This document shows positions 24,940 to 26,303 of a DNA stretch of 64,000 nucleotides, in pieces (the stretch's first letter is position 1; every line of letters starts with the position of its first letter). A model generated the notes under the pieces. It was given only the letters and a program-made list of their open reading frames with translations, did no database searches and had not been told where the DNA came from. Made by a program: the position numbers and the translations under genes. The stretch covers positions 2,480,001 through 2,544,000 of the forward strand of contig NZ_CP149787.1 in NCBI RefSeq assembly GCF_037914945.1, in the 5' to 3' direction. This DNA is from Haloterrigena sp. KLK7 (GTDB lineage Archaea; Halobacteriota; Halobacteria; Halobacteriales; Natrialbaceae).

Positions 24940-25215
24940 TCACTCTTCCCGAAGCGTTACCTGCAGTGTGGACTCGAGCGCGTCCGTTTGAAAGGCCGAA
25001 TCCGCGACGACGAGGTGATCGCCGGTCGAGCGGGCGGTCGCCGCGATCATCAAATCGCGAACGGCCATCCGGTCGCCATCGGTGCGGAGTTCGTCTCGCA
25101 GCCGAGCCGCCTCGAGCGCGATCTCCTCGCTGAACTCGAGGGAACGGACGCCGCCGAAGTGCTGTCGCTCTGCACGGAGATCGGTGTCGCCCCTGCCGAG
25201 CGCGTTTTGAGACAC
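24940..25215 (-). pseudogene. PIN-domain (VapC-like) remnant without its N-terminus
   Basis: The frame from a GTG at 25215 gives 91 residues. The stretch ALGRGDTDLRAERQHFGGVR followed by LEFSEEIALEAARLRDEL, then VRDLMIAATARSTGDHLVVA, matches the second half of a VapC-type PIN nuclease, with Asp of RDLMIAATA and Asp of VVADSAF in place. The first half, which should carry the first active-site Asp (the DTSxLID motif), is absent: going further upstream, the open frame (NNPQSCDFIPLE) has no similarity. No partner antitoxin is seen. I read this as a toxin gene broken near the tRNA-Tyr-associated repeat. Confidence 0.6.
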
Positions 25216-25303
25216 GTTCCGCTCAGAATTTGTGGTCGTCTCGAGAGGGATGAAATCGCAAGATTGCGGGTTATTCGGGGTCTGCTCGGAATCGACGAGG
25301 AAG

Positions 25304-25401
25304 GAAGTCCGCCCTCCCCGATTTGAACAGATGCCAGACGGTCGCGCTCACTGCGTTCGCGCGCTGCGACTGGCGTGTTCAAATCGTGGAGGGTAGATTT
25401 C
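25304..25401. repeat. Hairpin element made of two opposed copies of the tRNA-Tyr 3' end
   Basis: The left arm (25304-25328) matches 24 of 25 bases next to and within the tRNA-Tyr 3' end (25426-25450), in the same orientation. The right arm (25377-25401) is an inverted copy with 21 of 25 matches to the left arm. The 48 bases between the arms are themselves partly self-complementary (GCCAG at 25333, CTGGC at 25370), so the whole 98 bp can fold as one long imperfect hairpin. It resembles an attachment-site duplication reshaped into a miniature inverted-repeat element. Confidence 0.75.
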
Positions 25402-25429
25402 TCACTGCTCACGTTGTTCGCAGAAGAAA

Positions 25430-25503
25430 TCCGCCCTCCCCGATTTGAACGGGGGACAAGTCGATCTACAGTCGACTGCTCTACCAGTCTGAGCTAAGGG
25501 CGG
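25430..25503 (-). tRNA. tRNA-Tyr (GUA)
   Basis: A 74-nt cloverleaf on the minus strand. The acceptor stem CCGCCCT pairs with AGGGCGG with A as discriminator. The D arm is GCTC/GAGC, the anticodon stem GTCGA/TCGAC encloses CTGTAGA with anticodon GTA, and the T stem CCCCG/CGGGG encloses TTCAAAT. CCA is not encoded and there is no intron. Its 3' 21 bases are repeated at 25308-25328. Confidence 0.95.
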
Positions 25504-25568
25504 TCGCATTTCAACGTAGTCGGCGAGGATCACATAAGGGTTATTATTCGCGTCGCCGAGTGACGCGT

Positions 25569-25697: not shown

Positions 25698-26303
25698 ATG
25701 AGTAAGATCACGTTCCGCGCCGACGACGACCTCGTCGACGAACTCGAGGCCCTCGAGATCTCCAAGAGCGAAGCGATGCGGGAGGCGCTGCGCTCGTATC
25801 TCGGGGCCGAAGAGCGAACGGAACGCGCGCCCGCGGACGGCGAGACGGGCGCGATCGACGACCTGATCCGCCAGCGCGTCGACGAGCGACTCGACGAACG
25901 CCTTCGCGAACTGGATCGCGATCGCGGGGGAGCACACGCGCGTGAGAAACGCCCCGAGGAGGTCACCGTCACGGTCTCGCTCGGGGACGACGCCCGCGAC
26001 GATTCCGGACGCGGGATGTCCGACATCACGCGCGACGCGGAGCGTCGGACGAGCGCGCCGGTGACCGATGCCACACCGGACGACGACGAGCGACTGGCGA
26101 CCGCGGACGATGCGGACGGGCAGTGCGGGCAGTGTGGCGAAGCGGTCGCAGACGATCACGTCTTCTGTCCCAACTGCGGCGAGAAGACCTCGCGACGACT
26201 GTTCTGCGAGTGCGGCGACGAGATCCGTTCGGACTGGTCGTTCTGTCCCGGCTGCGGTCGTCGGACGCCGGCAGCGGACGTCCTCGGTGACACTCCGTCG
26301 TAG
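25698..26303 (+). CDS. cdrL: CdrL-like RHH plus double zinc ribbon regulator
   Basis: A 201-residue protein. The N-terminal 45 residues are a ribbon-helix-helix: KITFRADDDLVDELEALEI forms the DNA-contacting strand and first helix, and SKSEAMREALRSYLG the second. A helical, Arg/Glu-rich linker with IDDLIRQRVDERLDERL follows, then a disordered stretch, then two zinc ribbons (CGQCGEAV ... CPNCG, about 139-158; CECGDEI ... CPGCG, about 166-185). Position directly upstream of cdrS-ftsZ2 and the domain layout match the haloarchaeal cell division regulator CdrL, reported to control that operon. ATG 25698 begins right at the strand. Confidence 0.85.
   Translation: MSKITFRADDDLVDELEALEISKSEAMREALRSYLGAEERTERAPADGETGAIDDLIRQRVDERLDERLRELDRDRGGAHAREKRPEEVTVTVSLGDDARDDSGRGMSDITRDAERRTSAPVTDATPDDDERLATADDADGQCGQCGEAVADDHVFCPNCGEKTSRRLFCECGDEIRSDWSFCPGCGRRTPAADVLGDTPS

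Follow-up and report, generated by a model that had tools for sequence, protein, structure and literature searches.

Palindromic units bearing copies of the resident tRNA end lie directly behind tRNA genes of Halobacteria

A 122-bp palindromic unit lies directly behind the tRNA-Tyr gene in the 64,000-nucleotide stretch of Haloterrigena sp. KLK7 DNA analyzed here (the window). Our preferred reading, to which we give somewhat less than an even chance, is that it is a single member of a family of short palindromic, non-coding DNAs residing directly behind the tRNA genes of Halobacteria, which would act at the DNA level and have their arms written by template switching. The members of this family occupy a fixed position, duplicate exactly positions 53-73 of the tRNA, carry arms of the local tRNA, are seen at occupied and empty sites and in tandem arrays, and have their A and C hairpin modules replaced as blocks. 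We infer that they act as DNA, are copied, exchange parts and bring no benefit to the cell. They constitute a widespread repeat family for which no earlier description was found in the open-licence literature, a report in a subscription journal being possible.

Results

Structure of the unit behind tRNA-Tyr

The unit is anchored on a tRNA-Tyr (GTA) gene located at 25430-25503 of the window (ARAGORN; Rfam RF00005, 60.8 bits), which, like all parts of the unit, is read on the minus strand. On the tRNA strand these parts follow the order D0 (the tRNA tail), hairpin A, I, hairpin C and D1, with both extra copies of the tail located downstream of the tRNA-Tyr 3' end, towards lower coordinates. D0, which corresponds to tRNA positions 53-73 (GTTCAAATCGGGGAGGGCGGA; 25430-25450), was identified by repeat search as the source of the duplicate. 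Abutting the tRNA end is module A, a hairpin (TTTCTTCTGCGAACAACGTGAGCAGTGAGAAATC; 25396-25429) delimited by its fold and by its equivalent place in other units. It is followed by I, an inverted copy of the tRNA tail (25377-25401) defined by repeat search and by the alignment over arrays presented below, of which the 9-nt core GATTTGAAC (25377-25385) is the portion common to all units; at tRNA-Tyr, I is unusually long and runs into the end of module A. The central hairpin, module C (25329-25376; AGTCGCAGC..GAACGCAGTGAGC..GACCGTCT type), was recognized by its fold and by comparison with other units, and D1 (25308-25328) is a second direct copy of tRNA positions 53-73, identical to D0 at 21 of 21 positions. 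The two 21-bp copies are separated by 101 bp that contain no gene, and the entire inserted unit, A-I-C-D1, extends from 25308 to 25429 (model R1, 59.1 bits). Its limits are given by a genome from another genus of the family (G013), whose tRNA-Tyr site is empty and whose sequence after the tRNA aligns with that following D1 here, the first 19 nt being identical.

The initial annotation of this DNA had described a direct repeat of the tRNA 3' end with one mismatch, an inverted copy of it, and a 98-bp hairpin element formed by both. Repeat search recovered the two copies, the direct repeat as 25 nt with one mismatch between 25304-25328 and 25426-25450, and the inverted copy (25376-25401) as 85% complementary to the left arm at 25304-25329 and 88% complementary over 26 nt to the tRNA-side copy. 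The hairpin held as a strong fold, with z-scores against dinucleotide shuffles of -6.5 for the tRNA-Tyr stretch with the tRNA and -5.7 without it, and none of 200 shuffles equalling it, whereas its extent had to be redrawn to that of the whole unit, in which another hairpin separates I from the tRNA end. Chance or low complexity as the source of the unit was excluded by these shuffles and by its recurrence behind other tRNA genes. No Rfam family was found for the unit in searches over the window at gathering score and over 25250-25520 at E-values up to 5.

Past D1, at a distance of 92 bp, a truncated PIN-domain protein is encoded on the minus strand (24940-25215), lacking its N-terminus and covering profile positions 55-115 of 120; near its start, the flank becomes less similar to the unoccupied site of G013. 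This gene had been taken as fitting an integration scar, and its truncation is real, but nothing ties it to the unit. On the opposite side, between tRNA-Tyr and an FtsZ-family gene, 25698-26303 (plus strand) encodes a protein whose N-terminus has a ribbon-helix-helix motif and whose C-terminus forms a double zinc ribbon.

Related units at further tRNA loci

A DNA search across the Haloterrigena genome gave its top further matches behind tRNA-Phe, -Gly, -Val and -Pro. When the last 22 nt of each tRNA were compared with the sequence after it, at nearly all tRNA loci of the genome, many loci showed copies of their own tail matching at 20-22 of 22 positions, roughly 70-160 nt downstream of the tRNA. 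A covariance model of I-C-D1 was also built and run over the genome, and all 30 tRNA-strand matches listed at E<1e-3 were located at most 250 nt downstream of a tRNA gene. These 30 matches cover 25 of approximately 49 tRNA genes, i.e., about half, and two of them lie behind the intron-bearing tRNA-Trp. At least two units stand in tandem at Phe, Trp, Arg, Leu and Ser tRNAs, and the arms of each unit match its own tRNA. The general idea of the initial annotation, that of a repeat element organized around a tRNA end, was right.

Between tRNAs within a genome, the best similarities of the modules were about 0.71 identity for A and 0.76 for C. Neither module was more alike inside the Haloterrigena genome than across genomes, so that no recent burst is visible in it, and this reading was rejected. 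Near-identical tRNA genes occur as adjacent pairs at tRNA-Gly (GCC) (L024/L039) and tRNA-Asp (L031/L040), with a unit after each gene or after the first, and whole-tRNA-gene duplication may go along with unit arrays.

Distribution across genomes

A strict pattern, in which an inverted T-loop lies between two T-loops at fixed spacings, was found in 163 of the 195 sampled genomes of the order Halobacteriales, and its reversed control was never found in the same 195 genomes. In other orders of the phylum the pattern was detected in 2 of 124 sampled genomes, with one match each. A mobile origin had been considered doubtful should the element be absent elsewhere; units are present both behind other tRNAs and in these 163 genomes. 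Up to half of a genome's tRNA genes bear units with the ends of the host gene, and most of the order has such units, including the model genus Haloferax, represented by one genome among the loci.

A scan over 84,980 GTDB genomes assigned 77 of the 80 loci among the matches listed to Halobacteria, the others being one Kushneria contig and two Woesearchaeota. The Kushneria match was rejected as a unit, since it reads as tandem tRNA-Val copies. Among Woesearchaeota, D1 is perfect in a unit at tRNA-Leu and similar hairpins occur at two further loci, and a class-wide pattern search gave 3 positive genomes out of 281, one of them already known. The D-A-I-C-D layout is present behind tRNA genes at L333 and L335 (G330) and at L334 (G331), with a hairpin motif like the haloarchaeal one at two of the three loci and other hairpins at the third. 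The units of Woesearchaeota look genuine and represent the clearest exceptions to the near absence of the pattern outside the order. Two tRNA-Leu arrays (G105:C1:558688-559081 and G178:C11:391085-391356) contain two kinds of units in alternation (a-b-a and b-a), forming a higher-order repeat.

Conserved block and tRNA-specific arms

We aligned 174 arrays, most of them selected by the pattern, so that positions 53-61 are biased and positions 62-73 unbiased. In these arrays the duplicated block corresponds exactly to tRNA positions 53-73: identity between D0 and D1 amounts to 0.93-1.00 across the block and drops to 0.71 at position 52 and 0.57 at position 74. At positions 62-73, D1 is mostly identical at 12 of 12 positions. 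With regard to specificity, comparisons with the tRNA's own end reached 18 of 21 matches in 149 of 189 cases in pattern-selected loci and in 18 of 47 in the Haloterrigena genome, versus only 1 of 945 comparisons with foreign tRNA ends.

The inverted copy I is complementary to tRNA positions 54-64 (approximately 11 nt) in most units and on average shows no complementarity beyond position 65, the long inverted copy at tRNA-Tyr being an exception among units. At positions 57, 62, 63 and 64, its agreement with the resident tRNA was 0.95, 0.85, 0.66 and 0.53, compared to 0.74, 0.49, 0.35 and 0.25 with other tRNAs. Pairing at variable pairs was retained through two-sided changes in 8-14 of 54 sequences for the I:D1 stem and in 18-19 of 54 for the outer stem of C. 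A recurrent tip of modules A and C, CGAAC-GNA-GTGAG, has a GNA triloop that closes tandem G-A mismatches; this fold is known for its stability in single-stranded DNA.

Varying unit number and replacement of modules

The comparison of the tRNA-Tyr locus among relatives, proposed in the initial annotation, revealed occupied and empty states: the loci of 28 further haloarchaea hold between one and three units, decayed ones or no unit at all, and the site of G013 is empty. Arrays of at least two units, some of them identical, also vary between relatives. In the sister species pair L285/L287, A differs at 21 of 44 positions and C only at 1 of 35, and in the pair L282/L284 A differs at 10 of 40 and C at 1 of 33. 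Conversely, in the pair L291/L292 C differs at 11 of 35 positions and D1 at 0 of 21. Between sister species, either of the two hairpin modules can be substituted as a block, with D1 left in place.

Among units at different tRNAs of different genomes, 77 pairs had C modules at least 85% identical, with up to 38 of 39 positions in common. Of 400 informative positions of I in these pairs, 264 agree with its own tRNA and 58 with that of the partner, and the identity of A is 0.556 versus a background of 0.555. With A at background level and I fitting its own tRNA in pairs alike in C, the modules appear to be exchanged separately and the arms written locally. As the best A and C modules of different tRNAs within a genome reach only the identities given above while D1 is mostly perfect, a perfect D1 cannot date an insertion; either exchange with D0 or selection must maintain it. 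A miniature inverted-repeat element, also contemplated in the initial annotation, does not account for the unit: a 21-bp target-like duplication does exist, but the arms are those of the resident tRNA and A and C vary independently.

Mismatches in the unit stems

Mismatches in the stems of the units comprised 81 G-T and 68 A-C (p-value: 0.33), whereas departures from Watson-Crick pairing in the acceptor and T stems of the same tRNA genes comprised 71 G-T and no A-C. Counting isolated mismatches only, the unit stems gave 41 G-T and 39 A-C. Module A alone showed an excess of G-T (11:3) and module C the opposite bias (4:19), both with small counts and with stems obtained by ungapped search. The overall balance is that of strand-symmetric DNA palindromes and differs from that of a selected transcript; given the small counts and the ungapped search, and with A at 11:3, this module may have a role as RNA.

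Integrases and putative carriers

Archaeal integrative elements prefer tRNA 3' ends (PMC8371274), and a haloarchaeal provirus inserted in a Haloquadratum tRNA-Ala gene is flanked by a 22-nt tRNA duplication (PMC3119063), which makes an integrase with a core in the T-loop possible. Using the model, no unit was detected in six integrating haloviruses, including SNJ2, HHPV4 and HF2; the annotated attP of Halfgib1 has 13 bp, shorter than the 21-bp block; and blastn searches of phages and plasmids with the Tyr unit returned tRNA-only matches. A viral carrier was also sought in IMG/VR and rejected, as the 33 pattern matches are devoid of the unit's hairpin motif and look like tandem tRNA rows or chance. 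Integrase-family genes are present in the Haloterrigena genome, and the one located behind tRNA-Ala (GGC) is followed by no A, no C and no 21-bp copy. The segment from tRNA-Ala (GGC) and its adjoining integrase gene to a 12-bp copy of the tail (CCGGCGAGTCCA) spans G000:C1:48358-72154 (L328, L329), and this tail copy, 23.8 kb from tRNA-Ala (GGC), is tentatively regarded as the far end of an integrated element.

Discussion

The favored explanation is that of DNA-level palindromes whose arms would arise when strands under replication or repair fold back and switch template at the universal T-loop (GTTCRAAYC and its inverse). Such switching, as judged by its end products alone, would write the tail of the resident tRNA into the arms, and could also trade hairpin tips between units of different tRNA genes. 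Units would be gained or lost through recombination or slippage between D copies, aided by the intervening hairpins, and exchange between these copies would hold D1 to the sequence of the functional tRNA end. A selfish or neutral character of the unit is most likely, its presence being tolerated because the tRNA is left intact. D1 is nearer to D0 than I is, which counts against simple fold-back copying, and the 77 cross-tRNA pairs alike in C would also fit true mobility by a recombinase. The lack of a visible recent burst, the G-T excess of module A and the opposite bias of C likewise weigh against the favored reading.

The units could alternatively reflect a lineage-wide system that rebuilds tRNA-tail palindromes, with the resident tail as template for direct and inverted arms, and exchanges the two modules through a dedicated, tRNA-end-specific recombination activity. 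We hold this to be doubtful. The repeat family would represent palindrome-making at tRNA genes beyond any known integrase, transposase or CRISPR system. The units may also help to account for tRNA ends as archaeal recombination hot spots, and many of the partial tRNA copies of haloarchaea, usually read as prophage att sites, may be such units.

Mobility by a recombinase could also take the form of a mini-element in which the I:C:D1 hairpin serves as a folded or double attachment site, resembling that of an integron cassette, with new units added beside the tRNA. The 53-73 block is of the kind left by integrases that use the tRNA T-loop or 3' end (PMC8371274; PMC3119063, with its 22-nt duplication), the proximal D copies are usually the most perfect and the distal ones more decayed, and the genome has integrase-family genes. 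However, conservative recombination would give the tRNA the element's tail, so that always-local arms need an extra step, and the independent replacement of A and C implies that the unit does not move as a block; the short attP of Halfgib1 and the six integrating haloviruses lacking the unit also speak against it, making the mini-element somewhat unlikely. A further enzymatic origin, in which a Cas1-like protein or a transposase cuts both ends of 53-73 and duplicates 21 bp per insertion, finds an echo in the sharp borders on both sides of the block and in the addition beside the anchor gene, which recall CRISPR and casposon integration. Cas1 is absent from the Haloterrigena genome and present in 65 of the 195 sampled genomes, whereas units are present in 163 of them, and the insert holds a tRNA-specific inverted copy and is not conserved as a block; we therefore see this origin as very improbable. 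The initial annotation had proposed the scar of a single integrative element deleted from tRNA-Tyr. This agrees with the duplicated tRNA tail and with the unoccupied site of a relative, and the insertion at the tRNA end is indeed precise, but a one-off event is contradicted by the same structure behind 25 tRNA genes and in most sampled genomes. Nor can an integrative element with one fixed att site yield a family in which every copy bears the arms of its local tRNA, and the single scar retains next to no probability.

The last alternative places the function in a trailer RNA, in which I would pair with D0 or with a decoy D1 to switch tRNA maturation, or the hairpins would signal processing or termination. 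Folding of the transcript strand is very strong and its stems stay paired via two-sided changes, about half of the tRNA genes carry units that persist at the same tRNA over related species, and A, besides its excess of G-T, opens with a T-rich stretch typical of archaeal termination. Against this, the unit stems as a whole show no excess of G-T over A-C, in contrast to the 71:0 of the tRNA stems, presence at a given tRNA varies among close relatives, unlike what is expected of a needed regulator, D1 is conserved up to position 73, well past the part that pairs with I, and Rfam offers no match. We consider a trailer RNA unlikely.

The family of DNA palindromes that we favor can be compared with several known systems. 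The rtT repeats of the E. coli tyrT operon are tandem repeats behind tRNA-Tyr, each with a copy of the tRNA 3' end, which are known only as direct copies and from one operon. Tandem direct copies of tRNA ends are likewise present in the Haloterrigena genome (Phe, Trp, Arg, Leu, Ser), but the units described here have in addition an inverted copy and two hairpins, and extend to about half of the tRNAs and to the whole order. In Methanopyrus kandleri, a short palindromic motif located approximately 10 bp downstream of about half of its tRNA genes was reported as species-specific (PMC5217627); a copy of the tRNA end is not mentioned in that report, whereas the units here are built on it. Haloarchaeal elements targeted to tRNAs, such as SNJ2-type pleolipoviruses and HF-type proviruses, are alike in their use of the tRNA 3' end and in the direct copy at their far side (PMC8371274, PMC3119063), but they measure kilobases, encode an integrase, use one tRNA per element and are devoid of the inverted copy and of A and C modules. 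REP/REPIN and other small bacterial palindromic repeats are also short non-coding hairpins, gene-less and present in many copies; REP-type repeats are dispersed between genes, whereas every same-strand unit listed here lies behind a tRNA and bears its sequence. CRISPR arrays and casposons share the duplication of a repeat with each addition and the growth beside an anchor, but the Haloterrigena genome lacks Cas1, the "spacers" of the arrays are related palindromes and the repeat is the end of a host tRNA. Each of the nearest parallels shares one feature with the units and lacks the host-tRNA arms, and the Rfam searches gave no match to the rtT family. Repeat families normally bring their own ends; here, each copy bears the ends of the host gene.
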